Below, in pieces: positions 26,860-37,780 of a stretch of DNA of 64,000 nt. Origin of the DNA: Streptomyces scopuliridis RB72 (GTDB lineage Bacteria; Actinomycetota; Actinomycetes; Streptomycetales; Streptomycetaceae); the NCBI RefSeq assembly GCF_000718095.1, contig NZ_JOEI01000001.1:248001-312000 (forward strand). The letters run 5' to 3'. The stretch's first letter is position 1. Each line of letters opens with the position of its first letter. The translations under genes and the position numbers were made by a program. The notes beneath the pieces were generated by a model, which was not told the DNA's origin, did no database searches, and worked only from the letters and a program-made list of their open reading frames with translations.

Positions 26860-27654
26860 CTACGACCGACGGCCGGGTTTGCCGCGCCGGCCGCCCTTGG
26901 GGCCGCCGGAACCGCCGCGCGGACTCTTACCGCTCGACTTACCGCTCGACTTTCCGGTTGACTTGCCTGTCGACTTTCCGGCCACCGGCTTCCGCCGCGC
27001 ACCGCCGGTGTCGGGACGCTCGCGCTTCGGCTGCGGTGGGGTCGGGCGGCCCCGTGAGCTGTTGACGGTGCGCCCGCGCACGATCCCGATGAAGTCCTCC
27101 ACCAGTTCGGTGGTTTCGTCCTCCGGCCACGACAGAGCGACGCGCGACTCGGGGGCATCAAGGACCGGCCGGTACGTAAGGTCCCTGCGGTGGTGCAGCC
27201 GGGCCAGTGACTGCGGGACGACGAGCAGTCCCACCCCTGCCGCCACCAGCTCGACGGCGTCCGCCGTCGTGGCAGGACGCGCGTTCGCGGGCCGTCCCGG
27301 CCGGAGCTCCCAGTCGAGGGTGTCATCGAGGGGATGCAGCACGATCTCGTCGGCCAGATCCTCGGCGGACACCTCGTCGACCGCCGCCACCAGGTGGTCC
27401 TTCGGGACCACGACCACCGTCGTCTCGGTGTAGAGGGGAATCGCGCTGAGGTCGGTCCGGTCGATCGGCAGCCGTACGAAACCGGCGTCGGCGCCGCCGC
27501 CCCGCAACAGATCCGGCGCCTCGGCGGCGGACACCGCGACGAGGGTCAGCGGGACGTCGGGCAGCCGCTCGTTCCAGATCCGCACCCACTTGGTGGGCGT
27601 CACGCCCGGGACGTACGCGAGCCGGAACGAACGGGGTACTTCCGAGCCTGTCAC
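26860..27654 (-). CDS. LysR-type substrate-binding domain without HTH, basic tail
   Basis: 264 residues. The protein starts directly in the effector domain of LysR regulators (FRLAYVPGVTPTKWVRIWNE, LPDVPLTLVAV, AGFVRLPIDRTDLSAIPLY); no winged helix precedes it. After about residue 190 comes a Pro/Arg then Lys-Ser-Gly rich tail with repeated STGK/SSGK units and a GGRRGKPGRRS end. The tail could bind nucleic acid non-specifically. It is divergent from a DUF5997 gene, a pairing I recall from many streptomycetes. The role is unknown; a ligand sensor is one possibility. Confidence 0.8.
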   Translation of the reverse strand: MTGSEVPRSFRLAYVPGVTPTKWVRIWNERLPDVPLTLVAVSAAEAPDLLRGGGADAGFVRLPIDRTDLSAIPLYTETTVVVVPKDHLVAAVDEVSAEDLADEIVLHPLDDTLDWELRPGRPANARPATTADAVELVAAGVGLLVVPQSLARLHHRRDLTYRPVLDAPESRVALSWPEDETTELVEDFIGIVRGRTVNSSRGRPTPPQPKRERPDTGGARRKPVAGKSTGKSTGKSSGKSSGKSPRGGSGGPKGGRRGKPGRRS

Positions 27655-27712: not shown

Positions 27713-28117
27713 ATGACGTCGCACCAGACCATCCAGACAATGAAGCCCGCGACCGCGGCGAAGAAGCTGGGTGTGTACCTCGAAGCCACCCCCGCCGAGT
27801 TCCAGGAGGGTGTCGTCTCGCGCACCGAGCTGAACGCGCTGCAGGCCGATCCACCCCAGTGGCTGCTGGAACTGCGACGCAACGGCCCGCACCCCCGGCC
27901 GGTGGTGGCGGCGAAGCTGGGCGTCTCCATCTCGGGTCTCGCGCGCGGCGGAGTCACGGACGCCCTCACCACGGAGCAGATCGAGGCGCTGAAGAGCGAC
28001 AGCCCCGAGTGGCTGCGCCAGGAACGCGCCACCCAGGCCGAGGTCCGGAAGGAAGCGCTGCGCATCAAGGAGAAGAACGCGGAGCGAGGCGAGCAGCCCC
28101 ACCGTCCGCGCTCCTGA
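27713..28117 (+). CDS. DUF5997 family protein
   Basis: 134 residues, small and mostly helical. KPATAAKKLGVYLEATPAEF, then VSRTELNALQADPPQWLLEL and VAAKLGVSISGLARGGVTDA. The repeated KLGV plus following helix could be a divergent HTH, and family members are annotated only as DUF5997. It is divergent from the LysR-like protein. Its last 53 bases overlap the 3' end of the opposite-strand Gfo/Idh/MocA gene. Confidence 0.8.
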   Translation: MTSHQTIQTMKPATAAKKLGVYLEATPAEFQEGVVSRTELNALQADPPQWLLELRRNGPHPRPVVAAKLGVSISGLARGGVTDALTTEQIEALKSDSPEWLRQERATQAEVRKEALRIKEKNAERGEQPHRPRS

Positions 28118-29408
28118 CCCTCCCCACCGCCGCCGCGTCGTCGCGGACGTCGAGTTCGACCACCGTGCCGGTCACCCGGGCCTGTTCCGCCGCCCACACC
28201 ACGCGGTGGGTGGCGAGGCTCTCGGCGGCGTCGGAGAGCAGCAGGGACGCGTCGCCGGCGGCGACGGCGGTGAGGAAGGCGTCGGTCAGCGCCTCGTCCC
28301 CGCCTCCGTGGCCGTCCTCCGGGGAAGGCCCCGGACTCCCCGTCGCGCTCGTCCGTGTGTCGATCGTCTCCTCGGACCCGTCGCGAAAATCCACCAGCCG
28401 TAGTGTGCTTCCGTCGCCGTCGATGAAGCCGTGTGTGCCCAGCAGCCGGGTGCGGCGCTGTTCCATGGGGGTGAAGGCGCTCATGGTGAACGAACACGTG
28501 GCGCCGGAGTCGAACTCCATGCTGACCACCTGATGGTCGACCACATCGTTGTCGCACGCGTACACACAGCGGCCGTACGGCCCGGTGCGCAGCGCGTCCA
28601 GCACGCCTGTCTCGGTGTGGTCGTCGGTTACCGCAGACAGCGGCCAGAATTCCTGGTCCGGATCGCCGAGACAGCCCAGGTAGAGCCGCTTGGCCGAGTA
28701 TGGACAGCCGGTCTCCAGCGGGCAGTCGAGGCAGCGGGCGGTCGCGCCGGCCGGGGCGCCCTCGGGGCGGAAGTGCGTCAGACTGCCGAAGGAAGCGACC
28801 TTCCGTGGCGTACGTCCGAAGAGATGGACCAGCCAGTCGATGTCGTGGCAGGACTTGGTCAGCAGCATGGGGGCGGAGGTGTCCTGGCGGCGCCAGTTCC
28901 CCCGTACGAACGAATGGGCGTGGTGCCACCAGCCGACGGGCTCCAGATGCTGGACGCTGACCAGACCGCCGATGCGGCCACCGTCCAGCAGTCGCTTCAG
29001 CAGCCGGGTGTACGGCGTGTAGCGCAGTACATGGCAGACGGCCAGCAGGATGTCGTTGCGCCGCGCCGCGTCCGCGATCGCCGTGGCCTCGTCCTCGCCG
29101 GTCGCCATCGGCTTCTCCAGCAGAAGGTGATAGCCGAGATCGGCCAGTGCCACCGCCGGTTCGGTGTGCAGCCGGTCCTGGGTGGCGATGACGCAGGCGT
29201 CGGCCAGTCTGCCCGCCGCCGCCACCTCGCTCCAGTCCGCGTACACCCGCTCCGGCGGTACCCGGAACTCCTCCGCCGCCCGCGCCCGGCGCCGCGGGTC
29301 CGGCTCGGCCACCGCGACCACCTGTCCCGCTCCCGTGGCCAGGGCGCGCCGGGCGTAGGTCATTCCGCGGAGTCCGGCTCCGACGAGGACCATCGTCACC
29401 TGGGACAT
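28065..29408 (-). CDS. Gfo/Idh/MocA-family oxidoreductase
   Basis: 447 residues. N-terminal Rossmann fold (MVLVGAGLRGMTYARRALA; VVAVAEPDPRRR; LLLEKPMATGEDEA with the conserved EKP). The C-terminal alpha/beta domain has VRGNWRRQDTSAPMLLTKSC and HDIDWLVHLFG. A cysteine cluster CLDCPLETGCPYSAKRLYLG could bind metal. It oxidises or epimerises a sugar, or acts as an NAD-dependent glycosidase as GH109 relatives do; the sequence does not decide. It is the last gene of the ABC-kinase-GH4 operon, preceded by a 9-bp minisatellite, and its end overlaps DUF5997. Confidence 0.85.
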   Translation of the reverse strand: MSQVTMVLVGAGLRGMTYARRALATGAGQVVAVAEPDPRRRARAAEEFRVPPERVYADWSEVAAAGRLADACVIATQDRLHTEPAVALADLGYHLLLEKPMATGEDEATAIADAARRNDILLAVCHVLRYTPYTRLLKRLLDGGRIGGLVSVQHLEPVGWWHHAHSFVRGNWRRQDTSAPMLLTKSCHDIDWLVHLFGRTPRKVASFGSLTHFRPEGAPAGATARCLDCPLETGCPYSAKRLYLGCLGDPDQEFWPLSAVTDDHTETGVLDALRTGPYGRCVYACDNDVVDHQVVSMEFDSGATCSFTMSAFTPMEQRRTRLLGTHGFIDGDGSTLRLVDFRDGSEETIDTRTSATGSPGPSPEDGHGGGDEALTDAFLTAVAAGDASLLLSDAAESLATHRVVWAAEQARVTGTVVELDVRDDAAAVGRVRSADGGAARLAPRSSP

Positions 29409-29423
29409 GGGTTTCCCTTCCTT

Positions 29424-29486
29424 GAGTCCGTTGAGTCCGTTGAATCGGTCGGCTCGGTCGGCTCGATCGGCTCGGTTGAGTCCGTG
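29424..29486. repeat. minisatellite, seven 9-bp units
   Basis: Seven consecutive 9-base units of the type GAGTCCGTT / GGCTCGGTC, exactly in phase, in the 124-base gap between the GH4 stop and the Gfo/Idh/MocA start. The unit length is a multiple of three, and the repeat sits just upstream of the GGAAGGG ribosome site. It is prone to copy-number change. Confidence 0.85.
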
Positions 29487-29532
29487 AGCCCGAGCCCGGC
29501 GAGGGTGGGTACGGGGGCGGGCGCGAGGAGGG

Positions 29533-30861
29533 TCAGTGGCCGAGAGTGGTACGCAGCGACGGCTGGAGCAGATCCGCGTGCGCGCGCACCATGTCGTCGC
29601 ACAGGTCCCAGATGCGTTCGACGGGCAGGGCGGCCGCGGTGGCCGGGTCGGCCATGGCCGCCTGCCGGATGGAGCGCGGATCGTCCTCCAGCGCGGCCCG
29701 GACGACCAGTTCGTTCATGCTCAGATAGCCCCGGTTGAGCGCGGCGCACTGGGCGGGCAGCGAGCCGGCCCGGGTGGGCTGCACGCCCAGGGCGTCCACC
29801 AGACACGGCACTTCGACGGTGCCGGTCGACGGAAGATTGTCGATCAGCCCGTGGTTCGGGACGTTGCCGTAGACCGTGCGGGGCGTGCCGGTGGTGATGC
29901 TGTGGATGATCTGCGGGGCGTACTCCATGGTGCCCTCAACAGCCAGTGGGGCTCCGCAGGCAAGCGCGTCACGGGTCCGCTCGTACTCGGCGATGTTCTC
30001 GTCGACGATGCCGAGGTAGGCGCCGACGGGCAGGCGCAGCCGCTCGATCTCGCTGTCGTGGTGCAGGTACCAGGGGACGTATTCGGAGGAGTGCTCGCTG
30101 GTCTCGGTCGGGTAGTAGCCGAGGCGCCGGTACATGTCGACCCGTACCCGGCGCCGTAGCTCCGGGTTCTCCGCGACGAGGGCGTCCAGCCGCGGGTAGA
30201 GGTCGCTTCCCTGGTGCTCAAGACGCAGCACCCACGCCTGGTGGTTGACGCCGGCGGCCCGGTAGGTGACCTCCTCGTGCGGGACGCCCAGGAGGTCGGA
30301 GAGGTCGCGGATGGTCCAGTACACCGAGTGGCACAGGCCGACGACGCGGGTCAGCCCGGTGGCCCGGGTGAGGTACTGGACGTTCATCGCCATGGGGTTG
30401 GTGTAGTTGAGCAGCCAGGCGTCGGGGCAGACCTCGGCGATGTCCTCACCGAGTGACTTGAGCAGGGGGAAGGTGCGCAGCGCGCGGAAGATCCCGCCCA
30501 CGCCGAGGGTGTCCGCGATGGTCTGGCGCACGCCGTAACCGGCGGGGATGTCGAAGTCGGTACGGGTCGACGCGCGCATGCCGACCTGGACGATGTTGAT
30601 GACGAAGTCGGCGCCTTCGAGGGCCACGCGCCGCTCGGCGTGGGCGGTGATCCGGGGCGTGGTGCCGCTCGCCCCCGTCAGCCGGTCCGCGATGTGACGG
30701 GCGGCGCCGTGGGCCGTGGCGAGCCGTTCGGCGTCGATGTCGTGCAGGGCGATATGGGCGCCCTTGAGCTCCGGGAAAGCGAAGAGGTCCGCCAGCAGGC
30801 CCTGGGTGAATACGACGCTTCCCGCGCCGATGAATGCGATCTTCGGGGTGGTGATGGTCAT
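29533..30861 (-). CDS. glycoside hydrolase family 4 (alpha-galactosidase-like)
   Basis: 442 residues. NAD-binding start KIAFIGAGSVVFTQGLLADL; NYTNPMAMN near residue 155; Mn ligands Cys177-His178 in GLCHSVYWT and Asn206-His207 in GVNHQAW; GGIFRALRTFPLLKSLGEDI. GH4 enzymes cleave alpha-glycosides by NAD-dependent oxidation-elimination, and this subtype is closest in feel to MelA-type alpha-galactosidases. The ATG overlaps the kinase stop (TGATG). In context it probably hydrolyses imported alpha-linked oligosaccharides in the cytoplasm. Confidence 0.88.
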   Translation of the reverse strand: MTITTPKIAFIGAGSVVFTQGLLADLFAFPELKGAHIALHDIDAERLATAHGAARHIADRLTGASGTTPRITAHAERRVALEGADFVINIVQVGMRASTRTDFDIPAGYGVRQTIADTLGVGGIFRALRTFPLLKSLGEDIAEVCPDAWLLNYTNPMAMNVQYLTRATGLTRVVGLCHSVYWTIRDLSDLLGVPHEEVTYRAAGVNHQAWVLRLEHQGSDLYPRLDALVAENPELRRRVRVDMYRRLGYYPTETSEHSSEYVPWYLHHDSEIERLRLPVGAYLGIVDENIAEYERTRDALACGAPLAVEGTMEYAPQIIHSITTGTPRTVYGNVPNHGLIDNLPSTGTVEVPCLVDALGVQPTRAGSLPAQCAALNRGYLSMNELVVRAALEDDPRSIRQAAMADPATAAALPVERIWDLCDDMVRAHADLLQPSLRTTLGH

Positions 30862-31850
30862 CAGAGGTTCTTTCCGTTGCGGGCGAGGGCCGTTCGGGCC
30901 TCGTCCCAGGTGGGCTGGGCGGCGGTGCCGCCGTGCGCCCGGGTGGACAGAGCACCGCAGGCGGCGGCGAATGCGAGCGCCTCGGCGATGGACAGGCCGC
31001 GCAGGAACGCGGCGATGAAACCGGCGTCGAAACTGTCTCCCGCGCCGACGGTGTCCAGTGGCCGGGCGGGGATCGCGGGGGCGCGCAGCAGGGTGCGGCC
31101 GTCGTGTACGAGGGCGCCGTCGGCCCCGTTCTTGACCACGACCCGTGGCCCGAGGGCCGCGAGTGCACCGGCCGCCGCCTCCAGGGAATCCGCGGTGGCG
31201 AGCGAGCCGGCCGCGTCCGGGGAAGCGGCGGCGGACGCGAGGGCGAGCGCCTCCTGTGCGTTGGGCAGCAGGAAGTCGGTGACCGCGAGCGTCGCGTCGA
31301 TACGGCCGGGTGCCCACTCGCCGGAGGGGTCGTCATTGGTGTCGAGCGAGGTGGTGGCACCCTGCGCCCGTGCCGTGGCCAGCAGTTCGGGCAGCGCGTC
31401 GGCGAGTTCGGGCAGTAGGAAGTAGGAGGCGGCGTGCACATGCCGACTGCTGGTCAGCAGCGCCTCGGGGATGTCGTCGGGCCCGGTGGCGGAGAGGGTG
31501 CCGGGGGAGGTGAGGATCGTACGGTCGCCGTCCCCGCGCGTCACGACCACCGTGAGCGGTGTCGGCAGGCCGGGATCGACGCGCAGCGCGTCGGTGTTCA
31601 CGCCCCGGGCGTCCAGCGCCGTACGGACGAAACGCCCCGCGTCGTCGTCCCCGACGCGCCCGGCGAAGGCGACCTTCAGCCCGAGCCTGGCGGCTCCGCA
31701 CGCCATGATCGCGGCGGAGCCGCCGAGCGTGAGCAGGCCGGTGTCGACGAGCTGTTCACGCTGTCCGAAGGCGAGCGGCGCGTCGAGCGGTCCCAGAACG
31801 ATGTCGGGGTTGGCGTCCCCGATGACAAGCAGGTCGAAGGTGTGCGGCAT
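30861..31850 (-). CDS. PfkB-family sugar kinase
   Basis: 329 residues. N-terminal PfkB signature around LLTLGGSAAIMACGAARLGL and VAFAGRVGDDDAGRFV; C-terminal ATP/anion hole DTVGAGDSFDAGFIAAFLRG with the catalytic Asp. It phosphorylates a monosaccharide or derivative, likely the sugar released by the downstream GH4 enzyme. GGAAG precedes the ATG. It is coupled by TGATG to the GH4 gene and sits 95 bases after the second permease. Substrate unknown; galactose-, galactosamine- or tagatose-type sugars fit the locus. Confidence 0.88.
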   Translation of the reverse strand: MPHTFDLLVIGDANPDIVLGPLDAPLAFGQREQLVDTGLLTLGGSAAIMACGAARLGLKVAFAGRVGDDDAGRFVRTALDARGVNTDALRVDPGLPTPLTVVVTRGDGDRTILTSPGTLSATGPDDIPEALLTSSRHVHAASYFLLPELADALPELLATARAQGATTSLDTNDDPSGEWAPGRIDATLAVTDFLLPNAQEALALASAAASPDAAGSLATADSLEAAAGALAALGPRVVVKNGADGALVHDGRTLLRAPAIPARPLDTVGAGDSFDAGFIAAFLRGLSIAEALAFAAACGALSTRAHGGTAAQPTWDEARTALARNGKNL

Positions 31851-31945
31851 GCGGCTTCCCGTGATCGCGGCCCTGGCTACGCAGGTGTGGTGTGAGTGGT
31901 GGTGTGCGCGTGCGTGTGCGGTGTGTACGTGGGGCGGGACCGGAC

Positions 31946-32869
31946 TCAGCCCTTGAGACCGCTGGAGGTGATGGACTGGATGAAGGACTTCTGCGCGAAG
32001 AGGAAGGCGAGCAGCACCGGCAGAACGGTGATCACGTTGCCCGCCATGACCGCGGACCACTGGGTGTGATGCTGCCCCTGGAAGGTCGTCAAGCCGAGCT
32101 GCAGTGTGTACTGGGTGTCGTGATTGATGGCGATCAACGGCCAGGTCAGGTCGTTCCAGGTGGTCAGGAAGGTCAGGACCGCCACGGTGCTCAGGGCCGG
32201 TCGCGACAGCGGCAGCACGATGAGGAACAGCACCCGTAGCCGTGAACAGCCGTCGATCCAGGCCGCTTCCTCCAGCTCCCTGGGCAGGGAGAGGAAGAAC
32301 TGCCGCAGGAGGAACACGGCGAACGGTGTGACGAGCGACGGGACGATCAACGCGCCCAGTGTGTCGATGAGTCCGAGACGTTTCATGACCAGGAACGTGG
32401 GGATCATTGTCAGCTGGAACGGGATCGCCATCGTGGCCAGCATCAGGCCCAGCAGGACACGGGAGCCGGCGAACCGCATCCGGGCGAACGCGTAGCCGCC
32501 CAGGGAGCCGAGCAGCAGGTTGGACGCCACCGCGACCACCGAAACGATCAGCGAGTTGGCGAACCAGCGCGGGAACATCGCGTTGCCGAGCACATACCGG
32601 TAGCCGCCCAGATCGATCCCCGACGGCCACAGGGCCGGCGGGAAACGGTTGATCTCCGCGTTGCTCATCACGGAGCTGAGCAGCAGCCAGATCAGCGGGA
32701 TCGCGAAGATCAGCGTGAGGGGGGCGAGCAGCAGATGCCAGGGGCTGAACGGCAGCCACCGACGGCCTCGCGGAGGTCCGGCGGCCGGCCGGGCGGAAAC
32801 GGAAGCAGGAGAGGAGAGGGAGGAAGAGGAAGAGGAAGCGGAGGGAGAGGAAGCGGAGGTGGCCGTCAT
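31946..32869 (-). CDS. ABC sugar transporter permease, MalG type
   Basis: 307 residues from ATG 32869. The N-terminus is an unusual serine-rich run (SASSPSASSSSSSLSSPASV) before six membrane helices. The ABC permease EAA loop is EEAAWIDGCSRLRVLFLIVL. The ATG overlaps the stop of the other permease (ATGA) and has AGGAG upstream; the longer open frame to 33280 is antisense noise. It forms the importer channel with the MalF-type permease. Confidence 0.93.
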   Translation of the reverse strand: MTATSASSPSASSSSSSLSSPASVSARPAAGPPRGRRWLPFSPWHLLLAPLTLIFAIPLIWLLLSSVMSNAEINRFPPALWPSGIDLGGYRYVLGNAMFPRWFANSLIVSVVAVASNLLLGSLGGYAFARMRFAGSRVLLGLMLATMAIPFQLTMIPTFLVMKRLGLIDTLGALIVPSLVTPFAVFLLRQFFLSLPRELEEAAWIDGCSRLRVLFLIVLPLSRPALSTVAVLTFLTTWNDLTWPLIAINHDTQYTLQLGLTTFQGQHHTQWSAVMAGNVITVLPVLLAFLFAQKSFIQSITSSGLKG

Positions 32870-33906
32870 CGTGCGGCTCCTTCGAGGCGGTGGTTCTCGC
32901 GTCGGCCCCGTACGGCCCGCGTCACCCGCGGGACCGCGGCGATCAGGAGCAGCGCGAGCGCCAGCGCGTAGGCGGCCGCCGCGCCGTAACCGGCGGTGAA
33001 GTTCTTGAACGCCTGTTCCCAGATGAAGTAGACGATCACGGTGGTGGAGCCGAGCGGTCCGCCCTTGGTCGTCACGTACACCAGGTCGAAGACCTGGAGC
33101 GCGTTGATGGTCTGCCACAGCAGGAGGAACGCGATGACCGGTGCGAGCGCGGGGAGGATGACATGCCGCAGCAGGTGCCAACGCCCGGCGCCGTCCAGCC
33201 GCGCCGCCTCGATGAGGGACGGCGGCACATCCTGCAGCGCGGCGAGAGTGACCACCACGCAGAAGCCGGTGCCGCTCCACAACGAGATCGCCACCAGTAC
33301 GAGCAGGGCCTGTCCGGGGTCGGTGAGAAAGCCCTGCGCGGAGATGCCGAGCTTGTGCAGTACGGAGTTGGCCGCCCCGAACTCCGGGTCGAGGATAAAG
33401 GAGAACAGCACCCCCTGCGCCGTCGCCGAGATGACGAACGGCACGAAGATCAGTGTGCGGTACACACCCACCAGCCGAATCCGCTGGTTCAGTACGAGGG
33501 CGAGCAGCAGCCCCAGACCGATGCTCAGCGGTACGTACAGCGCCGTGTAGAGCAGTGTGTTGCGCACCGCCTGGCTGAAGTGCGGATCCCGCACCAGCGC
33601 GCGGTAGTTGCCGAGACCGACCCAGCGGCTGGGCGTGACCAGGTCGTCGGCCTGGAAGGACAGCAGCAGCGACCAGGCCACGGGTACGACGCTCAGACCG
33701 AGAATGATCAGGACCGAGGGCGAGACGAACGCCCAGGCGGTCGCGGACTCCCCGCGCAGGCGCCGCCGTGGAGCGCCCTGCCCCGGTCGCTTCCCAGCGG
33801 CGCTCGGCGCCGCGTCGCGGGTGTTGTCGTTGCTTGTGCGGGCGTTGTGGTCGTCGTGTGCGTGGCCGTGGTCCGGGAGCGTGAGCGGAGTGGGCAGGCG
33901 CGACAT
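32866..33906 (-). CDS. ABC sugar transporter permease, MalF type
   Basis: 346 residues. A His/Asp-rich cytoplasmic N-terminus (HGHAHDDHNAR) precedes six to seven helices. The EAA loop reads LIEAARLDGAGRWHLLRHVI. Helix content and YVTTKGGPLGSTTVIVYFIW match CUT1 family permeases that import di- or oligosaccharides. Its start is ten bases after the stop of the substrate-binding protein gene. No ATP-binding subunit gene is in the operon; CUT1 systems in Streptomyces commonly share MsiK. Confidence 0.93.
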   Translation of the reverse strand: MSRLPTPLTLPDHGHAHDDHNARTSNDNTRDAAPSAAGKRPGQGAPRRRLRGESATAWAFVSPSVLIILGLSVVPVAWSLLLSFQADDLVTPSRWVGLGNYRALVRDPHFSQAVRNTLLYTALYVPLSIGLGLLLALVLNQRIRLVGVYRTLIFVPFVISATAQGVLFSFILDPEFGAANSVLHKLGISAQGFLTDPGQALLVLVAISLWSGTGFCVVVTLAALQDVPPSLIEAARLDGAGRWHLLRHVILPALAPVIAFLLLWQTINALQVFDLVYVTTKGGPLGSTTVIVYFIWEQAFKNFTAGYGAAAAYALALALLLIAAVPRVTRAVRGRRENHRLEGAAR

Positions 33907-33916
33907 CGTATTCCTC

Positions 33917-35272
33917 TCAACGCGGGATGAGCAGAGCGGCGTTGGCCTCGTCCGCGCACGCGCGCAGGGCCTTGACGGGGGTACTCCTGCCGAGGAGTAC
34001 GGCGGCGATGGCCTGTCCGAGCGCCTGCGAGATCTGCGGATACGCCGGGTGCACGGGACGTACGCGCGCCGTATCCAGCGCCCGGGTGAACACCGGCAGC
34101 CCGTCGGTCCTGGCCTCCTGCGCTCGCCACGCGGGCAGGGCCTCCGTACTCCGGCTCAGCGGCAGGCTGCCGGCCATGACGTCCCAGCGCACATCCTGGG
34201 CCGGCCGCGACAGCCAGGTGACGAAGGTGAGAGCCGCCCGTACGCGCGCCGGACCGTTGTCGAACACGGTCCACGTGTCGGGTCCCGAGATGGTCATCGG
34301 CTTGCCGCTGTAGCTGGGCAGCGGCACCACGTGATAGTCGATCCTCGCCTGCTGGACGTCGGGCAGCTGCCACGGTCCGGTGACGGCCATGCCCATCCGG
34401 CCGGAGAGAAAGACCTGGTACATCTGCTCGCTGCCCGGCTTGGGGTCGATGTAGACGCTCTTGTCCTTCGCGAGCGCCGCCACCGTCTCCAGGGCCTGTA
34501 CCCCGACGTCAGCGAACCCGATCCGCTGTCCGTCCTCGCTGACGACATCGCCGCCCAGGTCCCACACCATCGGCCAGAGCCGCCACACCGTGTCCTCGTC
34601 ACCCACACCGGGCCAGCCGGTGCCGAACGTGCCACGTGCTGCGTCGGTCAGCTTCTTGGCCGTCGCCACGAACTCCGCCCAGGTCCAGCCCGGTTCGGGA
34701 AGGGGCAGGCCGGCGTCGCGGAAGAGTTTCTTGTTGCAGACCACGGCGAGCGAGTCGATCAGGGCGGGGGCCGCCCGTACCTGTCCGTTGAGTGTGACGG
34801 CCTCGCGGGCGGGAGCCCAGAAGTCGTTCCAGGGGAGGGGGCCGGAACGGACCGTATCGGTCAGATCCACCACGGACGGGCTGCGCGCGACGCTGGCCAG
34901 GTCCGAGCCGAAGACGTAGGCGATGTCGGGGAAGGAACCGGATGCGAGCGCCGCGGTGATCTTCTGCAGCATCGCGTCGGACAGCACGCCCCCGCCGGGA
35001 TCGACACGGATACCGGGATGGGTGCGGTTGAACTCCGTGACCAGTTTCTCGATCGCCTCGCGGCCGGTGTCCGTCTGTCCGTGCCAGAGCTCGACCGTGA
35101 CCCGTCCGTCGGCTCCGACGCCGTCGCCCGTGCCCATACCGCATCCGGGCAGGGCGGCCGTGGCGGCGGCGCCCAGCGTGAGACCGGTGCCCCGCCGCAG
35201 GACCGTACGGCGCGAGAGCCCGGCGGGAGTCCCGGGACCAGCGGTACCGGGAATGCGGTGTGCTGCGGCCAT
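33917..35272 (-). CDS. ABC sugar substrate-binding lipoprotein
   Basis: 451 residues. Tat-like RRTVLRRGTGLTLGAAA and lipobox LPGCG, then a CUT1-type binding protein: VELWHGQTDTGREAIEKLVT, EFNRTHPGIRV, FPDIAYVFGSDLASVA, GPWQLPDVQQARIDYHVVPL. It binds the oligosaccharide outside the membrane and delivers it to the two permeases downstream. It is the first gene of a six-gene leftward operon. Upstream, between it and the GH114 gene, a perfect hairpin (35396-35425) may be terminator or operator. Confidence 0.92.
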   Translation of the reverse strand: MAAAHRIPGTAGPGTPAGLSRRTVLRRGTGLTLGAAATAALPGCGMGTGDGVGADGRVTVELWHGQTDTGREAIEKLVTEFNRTHPGIRVDPGGGVLSDAMLQKITAALASGSFPDIAYVFGSDLASVARSPSVVDLTDTVRSGPLPWNDFWAPAREAVTLNGQVRAAPALIDSLAVVCNKKLFRDAGLPLPEPGWTWAEFVATAKKLTDAARGTFGTGWPGVGDEDTVWRLWPMVWDLGGDVVSEDGQRIGFADVGVQALETVAALAKDKSVYIDPKPGSEQMYQVFLSGRMGMAVTGPWQLPDVQQARIDYHVVPLPSYSGKPMTISGPDTWTVFDNGPARVRAALTFVTWLSRPAQDVRWDVMAGSLPLSRSTEALPAWRAQEARTDGLPVFTRALDTARVRPVHPAYPQISQALGQAIAAVLLGRSTPVKALRACADEANAALLIPR

Positions 35273-35395
35273 GTGAGCCCCCAGGGGAAAACGCGGCACG
35301 GGACGGTCACGCGGGGAGCGTCCCGGCACGGCGGGTGGTGTGCTGCGAGGTGATGGCGAAGGGTGCGCCGCGTGGGGGGCGGGGAGCGGCGGCTC

Positions 35396-35425
35396 GGTGC
35401 ACCCCAGCTGTGACCGGGGTGCACC
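35396..35425. terminator. perfect 10-bp hairpin between GH114 and ABC operon
   Basis: GGTGCACCCC and GGGGTGCACC enclose a 10-base loop. It lies 45 bases past the GH114 stop and 124 bases before the binding-protein start. Probably the GH114 terminator; an operator of the operon is the alternative. Confidence 0.6.
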
Positions 35426-35469
35426 GGGCCGGTCGGAACCGCTCGGCGGGGCTGATCGGACGGGCGGGT

Positions 35470-36288
35470 TCAGCAGGTCTTGCGGACGTACCCGCCGCTG
35501 CCGGGGGCGGTGACGTCGACGTCGCGCAGAACGACACTCAGCCGGTCACCGAAGCCCGCGCACGTCTCCTTGAAGTACTTCTCCTTGTACTCGATCACGA
35601 TGACGTTGTCGCCGAACCCCTCGGTGTAGTCACCGCACTCGTCCCACTCGCCGCACTCCTCCGCGACGGCGAAGTCGAGGCCCGTCTCCGCGTGGGCGGT
35701 GGAGAAGTTCGCGGTGTTCTTCTGCGCGATCGCCAGGCCCTTGGCGTGCGCGTGCGCGGAGAGCAGCTTGATGAACGCCTTGGCGTTGGCCTCGCTGATC
35801 TGGTCGAACCGGTCGAAGGTGTCGAGGTTGTCGGGCTCGACGGCGTTGAAGCCCTTGCTCGCGCAGGTGTCGATCCAGGAGTTCACCTTGGCTGCGATGC
35901 GCTGGCGCTTCGCGTCGGTACGGATGTCGAGAATGGCCTCACCCCAGCCGTCGTCGTAGACGATGTCGCCGCTCGCGTCCCGCAGCAGCAGATCGCCCCA
36001 CTCGCTCTCGGCTCCCGGCTGGGCCTGGAAGGCGTTGACATAACAGATGTTGTACAGGCCCGCCGCCGGTGAGGCGGTGTAGTCACGGCTGACGACCGTC
36101 ACTCCGGCGGGCGGTGTGTAGGGCTGGCCGATCTGGTAGTCGAAGTTGGCGTGTACCGGAGGGAGGGTCACGGCCTGGGCCGCCGCGCTCGCGGTGGAGG
36201 AGGCGAGCAACGGGGTGACCACCGCCGCCGCCATGGCCGCCGCGGCGGCAACGCACCGACGGGACCTGACACGGTTGATGATGGGCAT
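35470..36288 (-). CDS. secreted GH114 endo-alpha-1,4-polygalactosaminidase
   Basis: 272 residues with a Sec signal (RRCVAAAAAMAAAVVTPLLA, cleavage after ASA near residue 35). The mature part follows the GH114 pattern: NFDYQIGQPYTPP, ICYVNAFQAQPG, GFNAVEPDNLDTFDRFD (acidic active-site region), GLAIAQKNTANF, and EECGEWDECGDY. It is a TIM-barrel enzyme that cleaves alpha-1,4-linked galactosamine polymers. The ATG is preceded by GGAG eight bases upstream. It has its own promoter and lies upstream of an ABC-kinase-GH4 operon on the same strand, suggesting that it supplies the oligomers that operon imports. Confidence 0.85.
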   Translation of the reverse strand: MPIINRVRSRRCVAAAAAMAAAVVTPLLASSTASAAAQAVTLPPVHANFDYQIGQPYTPPAGVTVVSRDYTASPAAGLYNICYVNAFQAQPGAESEWGDLLLRDASGDIVYDDGWGEAILDIRTDAKRQRIAAKVNSWIDTCASKGFNAVEPDNLDTFDRFDQISEANAKAFIKLLSAHAHAKGLAIAQKNTANFSTAHAETGLDFAVAEECGEWDECGDYTEGFGDNVIVIEYKEKYFKETCAGFGDRLSVVLRDVDVTAPGSGGYVRKTC

Positions 36289-36440
36289 CTTGAGCTCCAG
36301 AAGATGGGGGGTACGTCCCCGCCTCGGACTCCGCGATCTCCGTGGGCGTCCTGGCGACTCAGTCCGGGCTGACGGTGCGTGGACCGCGTACCGGCTGGGC
36401 GTACCTCTGGCGCCGGGTGCTCAACTCTGGCGTTGCATGG

Positions 36441-36469
36441 AGTAAAGCGAGCAAGTTTCGTCATGTCAA
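36441..36469 (-). promoter_or_regulatory. promoter of the GH114 gene
   Basis: On the minus strand TTGACA (plus 36464-36469), a 17-base spacer, and TTTACT (plus 36441-36446): perfect -35, 4 of 6 at -10. It predicts an untranslated leader of about 145 bases to the ATG at 36288. Confidence 0.55.
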
Positions 36470-36479
36470 CAGATCGAAG

Positions 36480-36766
36480 CTGCGCATCTTGCGCATATGG
36501 ACAGCGAGTTCGGCGGCCGACGGGCCCGGATCTGCGGTCCGACCCGGCCCACGGTCCGGGCCGCCAGCCCGGCGATCAACAGCTCCAGTCCGTAGTGGAA
36601 CTCGGCGTCGTGATCGCTCGTGGCGAGGTACGGCGTGACGTCGGCGAGAAGCGGGGCGCCCGTGCTCGTGATGGCGTTGACGCGCTGCTGGATCCGGTCC
36701 GGATCCGTGGTGCCCAGGTGAGGGCGTAGCCCAGCTCGCGCATGAGCGTGCCGACGATGTGGCGAG
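36480..36766 (-). pseudogene. remnant of a TetR-family regulator C-terminus
   Basis: Frames reading ARHIVGTLMRELGYALTWAP then, after a small indel, RIQQRVNAITSTGAPLLADV and AEFHYGLELLIAGLAART match the TetR_C-type domain of actinobacterial regulators. The DNA-binding half is missing and at least one frameshift is present. It abuts a SnoaL remnant on the other strand. Confidence 0.55.
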
Positions 36767-36769
36767 CGG

Positions 36770-36846
36770 GAACAACTGGTCTGCGAGCGCGTCTACTTCG
36801 ACACCCTCACTCTGCTCCGGCAGCTGATCGGCGGCCTGAACATGTC
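36770..36846 (+). pseudogene. C-terminal remnant of a SnoaL-like gene
   Basis: The frame EQLVCERVYFDTLTLLRQLI followed by GGLN resembles the last helix and strand of SnoaL/ester-cyclase-like proteins. Nothing upstream of it in this frame belongs to the family. Confidence 0.45.
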
Positions 36847-36886
36847 CGTTGCGTGTGGCCGTTGTCATCTTCCTGGGCGGGCAGCG

Positions 36887-37273
36887 TCAGTCGCGTGTGT
36901 CGTAGCGGTGGCGGGCGGCCTCGATCTCCCCGAGGTACCGGCGGGTCCAGGCGCACATGCCGTTGACCGTGTCGCGCAGCGCCCGGCCCGCTTCGGTGAG
37001 GCGGTAGTCGACGCGCGGCGGCACGGTGGCGTACACCGTCCTGTCCACCACACCGTCACGTTCGAGCCCGCGCAGCGTCTGGGTGAGCATCTTGTGGCTG
37101 ATGCCGTCCACCGCGGTCCGCAGCTCGTTGAAGCGCAGAGTCCGGTCCTCCAGCGTGTTGATGACCAGAAGCGCCCACTTATTGGCCACACCGGCGTAGA
37201 TCTCTCGGGCCAGGGAGTCGGCGCGTGTCACATCGGCGTCCGCGGGCATGCGGCTGACCTGTTCGGTCACCAC
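36887..37273 (-). CDS. HxlR-family regulator
   Basis: 128 residues, a winged-helix repressor: NKWALLVINTLEDRTLRFNE then LRTAVDGISHKMLTQTLRGL and ERDGVVDRTVYATVPPRVDY are the HxlR helices and wing. GTG at 37273 (or 37270) follows GAGGGG. It is divergent from a VOC gene across 129 bases with a TACTC/GAGTA inverted repeat, so it most likely represses that gene and itself. HxlR proteins often sense aldehydes or quinones; there is no cysteine near the HTH here. Confidence 0.9.
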   Translation of the reverse strand: MVTEQVSRMPADADVTRADSLAREIYAGVANKWALLVINTLEDRTLRFNELRTAVDGISHKMLTQTLRGLERDGVVDRTVYATVPPRVDYRLTEAGRALRDTVNGMCAWTRRYLGEIEAARHRYDTRD

Positions 37274-37318
37274 GAGGTTCCCCTCTCACCGGAAAGTGCG
37301 TTCTTCCACGTCAGAGCA

Positions 37319-37341
37319 TACTCACCTACGGTTTCCGAGTA
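37319..37341. promoter_or_regulatory. inverted repeat between hxlR-type gene and VOC gene
   Basis: TACTC and GAGTA separated by 13 bases, in the divergent intergenic region; candidate HxlR operator. Confidence 0.4.
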
Positions 37342-37402
37342 ACCAGAAGAGACCGCTGGTACCCGGCACGCCCGCCGGGGCCGGCCCGGCAAGGAGCCAC
37401 TT

Positions 37403-37780
37403 GTGACCATCCTGAGGACATACGCCCGACTGTGGACCGACGACCTCGACCACGCGCTGCCGCTGCTCAAGGAGCTCACCGGCGCGGAGCCGCATCTGCG
37501 GATGGCGTTCCACGCCGTCGAGCTGGCCGCCATCGGCGACTTCCTCGTCATCGCGGGCCCGGCCGAGGAGCGCGCGGCATACGCGCACGCCTCCGCCACC
37601 GTGGTCGTCGAGGACCTCGATGCCGTCCAGGCGACCCTGGAGGCCGCCGGTGCCACCATCACCACCCCCATCACGAGCGGCCCGACGGGGCGGTTCCTCT
37701 ACGCCCGCCATGCCGACGGGGCCGAGATCGAGTACGTCGAGTGGACGCCGGAGCTGGTCCGGCAGCACGGCCGTAGCTGA
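37403..37780 (+). CDS. VOC-family protein
   Basis: 125 residues. A single glyoxalase-like module: ILRTYARLWTDDLDHALPLL, FLVIAGPAEERAAYAHASAT, VVVEDLDAVQATLEAAGATI, FLYARHADGAEIEYVEW with a terminal acidic metal-ligand position. GTG with AGGAG six bases upstream. Divergent from the HxlR regulator, its probable controller. It may bind or detoxify a small electrophile. Confidence 0.85.
   Translation: MTILRTYARLWTDDLDHALPLLKELTGAEPHLRMAFHAVELAAIGDFLVIAGPAEERAAYAHASATVVVEDLDAVQATLEAAGATITTPITSGPTGRFLYARHADGAEIEYVEWTPELVRQHGRS

Follow-up and report, generated by a model that had tools for sequence, protein, structure and literature searches.

A putative galactosaminide-utilisation locus of Streptomyces and its conserved leader RNA

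Which sugar polymer is used by bacteria that encode a secreted enzyme of the GH114 family together with a CUT1-type ABC importer, a PfkB-type kinase and a GH4 glycosidase, and how are these genes regulated? The question is raised by a locus of Streptomyces scopuliridis RB72 that lies in a stretch of 64,000 nucleotides (nt; contig NZ_JOEI01000001.1, positions 248,001 to 312,000), referred to as the window in what follows. GH114 enzymes cut α-1,4-polygalactosamine and GH4 includes α-galactosidases. A previous sequence-only reading had assigned the locus to the use of an α-linked galactosamine polymer, and the gene families and coordinates it gave, all on the minus strand (Table 1), are borne out by Pfam and NCBIfam matches. 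Here, we show that the gene order is conserved and that a covarying RNA precedes GH114 and importer genes. We consider it probable that the locus serves galactosaminide utilisation and is governed by a shared leader RNA, with a route of cutting, import and catabolism as outlined below. The leader RNA is the novel piece and goes beyond the earlier gene-cluster reading. Loci, genomes and contigs are cited by L, G and C numbers where they have to be told apart.

The same gene order recurs in other genomes beyond chance. In a sample of 199 genomes of the same genus (the window's own included) a GH4 orthologue was found in 25 and GH114 in 149. Mapping of the GH4 neighbourhoods by tblastn, in stretches of at most 20 kb, showed GH114 in 18 of these 25 loci, upstream of the gene for the substrate-binding protein (SBP) of the importer and on the same strand in 16, and on the opposite strand either after GH4 (L060) or upstream (L073). 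It is absent from four intact operons (L061, L068, L069 and L071); L025 and L080 are limited by contig ends and L081 has a more distant GH4 (52–53%). Named genomes were also scanned with an alignment of GH4, which gave at least 587 confirmed places; the best 80 of these (64 with full flanks) were used as named loci. GH114 was detected by hidden Markov model search in 35 of these 80, in genera including Streptomyces, Embleya, Nonomuraea, Amycolatopsis and Kribbella, and more distant GH114 proteins occur at linked loci in Lentzea, Umezawaea and Actinocrispum. An objection foreseen in the sequence-only reading, that homologous operons regularly lack GH114, holds for loci with GH4 identity below 70% (10 of 50 have it) and fails for those with at least 70% (25 of 30). 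From these counts and the 18 of 25 genus loci it follows that the GH114 linkage is real and selective and that the core of GH4 and importer is more widespread than GH114. GH114 as a chance neighbour was considered and rejected on the GH114 counts, the GH4 loci and the placement of the leader RNA. Two of the loci without GH114 hold a GHL10 gene (PF02638) within 10 kb (L069 251–1573 and L071 4055–5377), which may be unrelated.

Strong conservation extends over about 190 nt upstream of GH114, which comprise a promoter-like pair, a 5′ hairpin (P0) and a core that folds into a three-way junction, so positioned that the RNA lies between the promoter-like pair and the start codon, near the GGAG site. 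TTGAC and TTTACT are retained in the 80% consensus of 59 leaders. A simple promoter and terminator scan found terminators about as often as expected by chance (3 versus 2.5 ± 1.8) and not a single promoter; it did not report the pair because the second hexamer has no A at position 2. Some hairpin is found at the place of P0 in 47 of 47 leaders, with −5.8 to −26.2 kcal/mol taken without a shuffled control and the window among the weakest. In the core P1 is formed by GGUACGCCC pairing with GGGGaCGUACC, P2a (CCGG/CCGG) is invariant in 47 leaders and capped by the variable P2b, and P3 consists of CGCC/GGCG plus GGAC/GUCC.

The structure is supported by covariation. The 59 leaders were reduced to 48 by removing L058 (same as the window), L084, L088 and near-identical ones, and the alignments comprise 46 of these 48 (L086 and L090 were left out) plus the window, i.e., 47 sequences. 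The consensus structure came from RNAalifold, with P2b re-registered by eye, and covariation was counted on the MAFFT alignment, in which 94.7% of cells pair and 11 of 26 pairs show two-sided changes. These changes occupy 53 cells versus 17.0 ± 3.8 after shuffling (reached in 0 of 500 shuffles), and structures slid along the same alignment pair in just 29–48% of cells. A model-fitted alignment of 63 matches gave 96.5% paired cells and two-sided changes in 13 pairs and 102 cells versus 24.7 ± 5.3 (0 of 500 shuffles), counts that lean towards the structure because this alignment was fitted to the model. P1 differs by lineage, being GGUACG/CGUACC, GACGC/GCGUC in the Kribbella type and GAUC/GAUC or GGUC/GACC in Micromonosporaceae, while the junction bases are kept. 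This rewriting of a helix around kept junction bases is the pattern expected of an RNA aptamer. In the stretches searched no Rfam 15 family matched at gathering level and none believably with lax filters; the sole lax match overlapping the core was DUF3800-XI with at most 14 bits versus a gathering threshold of 37.8. A known Rfam identity of the leader was accordingly rejected.

Two covariance models (R1 and R2) were used to follow the distribution of this RNA; training sequences, among them the window, match by construction. With R1 the window copy is the only match in its own genome at E ≤ 1. R2 gave 49 matches in 35 of the 199 genus genomes, and 42 of them lie 20–247 nt before the aligned GH114 start on the same strand, the RNA ending 20–88 nt before that start in 34 of the 42. 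Five further matches (G032, G084, G096, G100 and G109) precede the importer operon, one stands at a contig end (G168) and one before a GH4 remnant (G133). In those five genomes there are separate RNA copies before GH114 and before the SBP gene; one of the scans behind this result took in 70 sources. The best 80 named loci contain 35 R1 matches besides that of the window: 26 before GH114, 6 before the SBP gene, and those in L134, L136 and L140 before a kinase of the 1-phosphofructokinase (1-PFK)/LacC type followed by an aldolase. In a set of 35 genomes R2 gave 15 matches in 14 genomes. Four R2 matches lie outside both training sets, three of them before GH114 (two Winogradskya genomes, one Virgisporangium genome) and the fourth, in the genome of L122, before a NagK-like kinase (80.7 bits, cut-off 370). 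At class level, where 394 genomes were scanned under stricter filters, there were 10 matches in 8 genomes. At L198 (8728–9161) a GH4 remnant directly follows the leader RNA, and the operon seems to have been deleted.

The leader is thus conserved and structured, has covarying helices and an invariant core and stands before related genes across genera, as riboswitches do. We read it as a new cis-regulatory RNA and, quite possibly, as a riboswitch for a metabolite of the galactosamine pathway. More tentative, with slightly less than an even chance in our estimation, is the full proposal that Actinomycetes have a new class of riboswitch, one that senses galactosamine, galactosamine-6-phosphate or a tagatose phosphate and switches on cutting, import and catabolism together, the GH4 under its control being the first GH4 α-galactosaminidase. 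The most serious alternative, which we regard as possible yet doubtful, is a structured RNA other than a riboswitch, i.e., one bound by a protein (antiterminator, repressor or RNA-binding regulator), a stabiliser or a thermosensor, with the metabolite sensed by a DeoR regulator. Several loci indeed have, divergent to GH114, a DeoR gene with AgaR-like profile similarity. Nor was a clear expression platform found: inspection by eye across the leaders recognised neither a conserved terminator nor a helix sequestering the Shine–Dalgarno sequence by any rule that holds across species. Against such a protein-bound leader speaks that the window has the RNA without a DeoR gene in the locus and that a DeoR match occurs in only 7 of 40 same-genus stretches; moreover, junction bases that stay invariant while helices are rewritten are typical of aptamers.

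Which sugar is concerned is suggested less by GH4 than by the partner genes of the wider locus. The closest relative among the named loci is Streptomyces sp. L-9-10 (L097, GH4 98% identical), with the order DeoR | GH114-SBP-PermA-PermB-PfkB-GH4-SIS-aldolase-Gfo-LysR fragment, where PermA and PermB are the two permeases. Among the best 80 named loci SIS/AgaS-type genes are found in 40, aldolase/AgaZ-type genes in 36 and DeoR genes in 52. The aldolases are of the class II ketose-bisphosphate type (2 of the 4 tested from loci pass the broad cbbA cut-off, none the tagatose-specific one), and in more distant loci 1-PFK/LacC-type kinases pass a broad subfamily cut-off but not that of LacC. For the DeoR protein of L059 AgaR is the second-best profile (194.7 bits versus a cut-off of 260). 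In the distant Mycolicibacterium locus L158 an AgaZ/GatZ protein reaches 630 bits, over the cut-off of 568.8, an AgaS-like protein 455 bits versus 529, and a kinase is weakly NagK-like. Five Mycolicibacterium/Mycobacterium loci (L158, L159, L161, L169 and L171) have GH4 and importer without GH114, and their genes cluster with those of AgaS-, AgaZ- and NagK-like proteins, the proteins having been scanned for L158 alone.

The locus of the window itself has no genes for deaminase, tagatose-6-phosphate kinase or tagatose-bisphosphate aldolase, apart from PfkB of putative specificity. Compared with L097 about 1.85 kb with the SIS and aldolase genes is absent between GH4 and Gfo (window positions 29499 and 29440 align to 10367 and 12219 of L097), and the upstream DeoR region is absent as well. 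Since L098, L101 and L116 likewise have SIS and aldolase genes after GH4, it is simpler to assume that the window has lost them, and its copy would be a trimmed one. Elsewhere in the genome, contig C32 carries a GlmD-like SIS protein (55% identical to that of L072) beside a DeoR gene, and contig C17 a kinase of the 1-PFK/LacC type next to a ketose-bisphosphate aldolase, each scoring above a broad subfamily cut-off. With these homologues the route can be complete in trans, and they may serve this operon. An amino sugar requires a SIS deaminase whereas galactose does not, and glucosamine, if it entered directly at fructose-6-phosphate, would leave no need for a dedicated kinase and aldolase; both points argue for galactosamine. 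The wider locus thus carries genes that fit galactosamine catabolism, and we infer that galactosamine is the sugar. Judged from the sequences, use of an α-linked galactosamine polymer is the best reading of the locus.

Ordinary α-galactosides (of the melibiose/raffinose type or α-1,4-galactan) as the imported substrate, with GH114 as an unrelated neighbour, seem unlikely. That GH4 surpasses the cut-off of the α-galactosidase subfamily would agree with them, as would the 197-nt gap and the strong hairpin that separate GH114 from the SBP gene in the window. They are opposed by the leader RNA, which is common to GH114 and the importer operon and occurs in separate copies in five genomes, by the presence of GH114 in 18 of 25 loci, by estimated GH114–SBP gaps of at most 26 nt in 7 of 18 named loci measured, and by the GlmD/AgaS-like deaminases, which plain galactosides do not need.

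In the galactosamine route that we favour, the secreted GH114 would cut α-1,4-linked galactosamine stretches of a cationic polymer such as fungal galactosaminogalactan, bacterial Pel or polygalactosamine. The oligosaccharides would enter the cell through the CUT1 importer, with energy from a shared MsiK-type ATPase whose gene lies elsewhere. GH4 may then free galactosamine and/or galactose in the cell, and PfkB may phosphorylate a product. Entry into glycolysis would be through a deaminase/isomerase with a SIS domain, a kinase of the LacC/1-PFK type and a ketose-bisphosphate (tagatose-type) aldolase; the corresponding genes adjoin the operon in some relatives and have homologues in trans in the window's genome. 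The three-way-junction RNA of about 100 nt in the 5′ leader would be transcribed and would co-regulate the genes, most likely in a riboswitch-like manner, by controlling translation or early elongation in answer to a metabolite of the galactosamine pathway. Where a DeoR gene is kept, its AgaR-like repressor may act together with the leader RNA.

The GH114 protein fits this role. Its best sequence match in PDB is Ega3 (6oj1), and the predicted structure (predicted local distance difference test, pLDDT, 87.9) shows a (β/α)8 fold nearest to Ega3 in Foldseek (6oj1 with E 4.5e-16, GH191 2.2e-9, PelA 7.5e-9). The putative catalytic residues Asp153 and Glu210 are invariant in 13 aligned sequences, the window included, and align with residues 148 and 206 of the 6oj1 chain, i.e., with 189 and 247 after a hand-counted offset of 41. 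In Ega3 D189 is the nucleophile and E247 the acid/base (PMC12054363, section 3.4). With a secretion signal judged by eye, the protein is predicted to hydrolyse α-1,4-polygalactosamine outside the cell. According to the introduction of the same paper a galactosaminidase of Streptomyces griseus is known without a sequence; the paper (2025) also states that the bacterial GH114 enzymes chosen for its study failed to yield properly folded soluble protein and that such enzymes "remain elusive" as recombinant products. Since GH114/GH166 relatives in fungi and Pseudomonas take part in making polymers (PMC12054363, introduction), GH114 might instead remodel an envelope or biofilm polymer of the producer, with the importer recycling the fragments. 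We consider this improbable: the recurring partners are catabolic genes, and no polymer-synthesis gene was noticed in the gene lists of the loci, although no search was aimed at one. Finally, it is very improbable that the leader owes its conservation to a DNA element (operator array) or to simple descent, as two-sided pair changes far above the shuffled and slid controls and a P1 that differs by lineage with pairing kept outweigh the conserved promoter-like pair within it and the shared ancestry of related strains.

A second GH114 gene in the window's genome (G000:C4:204770–205426) is about 50% identical and has no leader RNA match; permease-like genes lie about 2–4 kb from it (L095). A second, divergent GH114 (46%) directly follows GH4 in L065 (7383–8123) and also occurs in L104 (10402–11397).

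The GH4 protein belongs to the NF011657 α-galactosidase subfamily (570 bits versus a cut-off of 486) and has both GH4 domains (PF02056 and PF11975); that it acts on galactosamine linkages is guessed from its genomic context. The earlier proposal of polymer use stands as far as GH114 is a true partner and the wider locus carries galactosamine-type genes; it does not stand for the Gfo/Idh/MocA protein, to which a GH109-like role had been given. In that protein Pfam shows generic GFO_IDH_MocA domains only and no GH109 signature, and among 51 PDB matches none is labelled GH109 or α-N-acetylgalactosaminidase; on these grounds a GH109 role was rejected. It is also rare, with close homologues in only L097 (93%), L105 (76%) and L140 (68%) of the best 80 loci and a relative of 27–30% identity in 8 further loci.

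Several observations weigh against a galactosaminide locus under a riboswitch-like leader. As regards the RNA, of the 199 genus genomes 149 have GH114 and only 35 the leader, the E-values of the models are rough, P2b is a weak helix (77.5% of cells paired in the MAFFT alignment) and the leader of the window taken alone is not unusually stable versus shuffled sequences (z −1.1). Two class-level matches (G479 and G516) were judged false, being weak, from other families and located within long open frames that match no pathway gene. In addition, the hairpin behind GH114 may end the GH114 transcript. As regards the enzymes, the best NCBIfam label of GH4 is α-galactosidase, and to our knowledge no GH4 enzyme acts on amino sugars; L060 and L064, both with GH114, gave no match for PfkB. 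The SIS proteins of the loci resemble GlmS/GlmD/AgaS deaminases/isomerases with top scores that are GlmS/GlmD-like and below every cut-off, and the SIS protein on C32 reaches 24.7 bits, just below the Pfam SIS cut-off of 25. Among loci with GH4 identity of at least 70% SIS and aldolase genes are each present in 6 of 30, so that the case for galactosamine depends on a minority of these together with the distant loci. As neither the aldolases nor the 1-PFK/LacC-type kinases reach a tagatose-specific cut-off, fructose substrates are possible.

Table 1. Features of the locus and its leader; positions are those of the window
Feature	Position	Strand	Evidence or remark
Promoter-like pair TTGACA – 17 nt – TTTACT	36441..36469	-	conserved with leader
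Hairpin P0, 5′ end of leader	36411..36432	-	single-sequence folds
Leader RNA core, three-way junction P1 / P2a–P2b / P3, ~100 nt	36309..36409	-	covariance model 90.9 bits, E 2.5e-16
GGAG, ribosome-binding-site-like sequence, 6 nt before GH114 ATG	36295..36298	-	kept in leader alignment A2
GH114, endo-α-1,4-polygalactosaminidase-like, putative secreted, 272 amino acids	35470..36288	-	PF03537 176.6 bits (cut-off 27)
Hairpin in GH114–SBP gap, candidate terminator or mRNA stabiliser	35391..35430	-	14-bp stem; region z -3.7
CUT1 substrate-binding lipoprotein (SBP)	33917..35272	-	PF01547 139.7 bits; lipoprotein-like signal by eye
CUT1 permease A (PermA)	32866..33906	-	PF00528
CUT1 permease B (PermB)	31946..32869	-	PF00528
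PfkB-family sugar kinase, proposed galactosamine or tagatose-6-phosphate kinase	30861..31850	-	PF00294 198.7 bits
GH4, NAD/metal-type α-glycosidase, α-galactosidase subfamily	29533..30861	-	PF02056 + PF11975; NCBIfam NF011657
Junction: L097 has SIS deaminase-like and aldolase genes, window without	29440..29499	-	alignment
Gfo/Idh/MocA oxidoreductase, accessory gene in few loci	28065..29408	-	PF01408/PF02894/PF22725

The genes are less tightly packed than the mostly overlapping starts and stops described before. By coordinates only 2 of 6 junctions overlap (PermA/PermB and PfkB/GH4, the start codon of PfkB having been picked by eye), and the others are gaps of 10, 95 and 124 nt plus the 197 nt between GH114 and the SBP gene. 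The hairpin region in this last gap is more stable than any of 200 shuffles (0 of 200 as stable) and in the window it may lead to more GH114 than importer mRNA. It is not general, being strong in some species, while elsewhere the two genes almost abut; 7 of the 18 named loci measured have an estimated gap of at most 26 nt, and co-transcription is natural there. PfkB remains below the cut-off of every NCBIfam model. No ATPase gene was seen among the gene families of the locus, in line with the earlier description of the importer. An MsiK/UgpC-type ATPase is encoded in trans (C17:75150–76265, 468 bits versus a cut-off of 432) and is the sole one passing in the genome. The SBP and two permeases without ATPase, together with an ATPase of this type elsewhere, agree with a CUT1 system sharing MsiK, and this ATPase presumably powers the importer.

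Around the locus some minor genes may be mentioned. An open reading frame (ORF) directly after the Gfo gene (26860–27654, minus strand) has a LysR substrate-binding domain and, in Pfam, no helix-turn-helix domain; among the best 80 named loci it has a match only in L097 (92%). The region 36461–37780 stands where L097 has its DeoR gene. It contains a short ORF (36461–36868) that looks like a putative remnant, an HxlR-type regulator (36887–37273) and a small ORF with a weak glyoxalase match (37403–37780).

If this reading is true, the locus shows by which genes bacteria can use cationic galactosamine polymers, the material from which biofilms of fungi and bacteria are built. Bacterial GH114 enzymes, described as hard to produce (PMC12054363), would at the same time be placed in a biological setting. 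The RNA makes the identity of its ligand directly testable since the downstream genes name the pathway, and an RNA that senses an amino-sugar metabolite would be a new riboswitch class. Titles and abstract beginnings in the open-licence PMC literature gave no account of this gene arrangement in Streptomyces or of a galactosamine riboswitch.

Compared with known systems, the leader resembles riboswitch-type leader RNAs such as ydaO (c-di-AMP) and glmS in its conserved structured 5′ position, its variable outer helices, the invariant junction and the pathway-specific genes downstream, and differs from them in matching no Rfam 15 family and in its as yet putative ligand. The pathway for GalNAc and galactosamine of enteric bacteria (Aga/Gam) comprises AgaR, AgaS, AgaY/KbaZ and a phosphotransferase system. 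With it the loci share an AgaR-like regulator, SIS deaminase-like proteins, ketose-bisphosphate aldolases and, in a distant locus, AgaZ; in contrast, a CUT1 ABC importer, GH4 and a secreted GH114 are found here in place of the phosphotransferase system. Most Aga/Gam equivalogs are below cut-off, AgaZ (L158) being the only tested protein to pass a pathway-specific one. Like GH4 α-galactosidases of the MelA type (NF011657), the GH4 of the window exceeds the curated subfamily cut-off, but it is linked to galactosamine-type genes and its substrate likely differs. The endogalactosaminidase of Streptomyces griseus, reportedly described by Reissig in 1975, shares genus and presumed activity with the GH114 of the window, which is only a candidate for such an enzyme. 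Ega3 of Aspergillus fumigatus (6oj1/6ojb) is matched in sequence family, predicted fold and the Asp/Glu catalytic pair, whereas the GH114 described here is bacterial, secreted and embedded in a catabolic operon.

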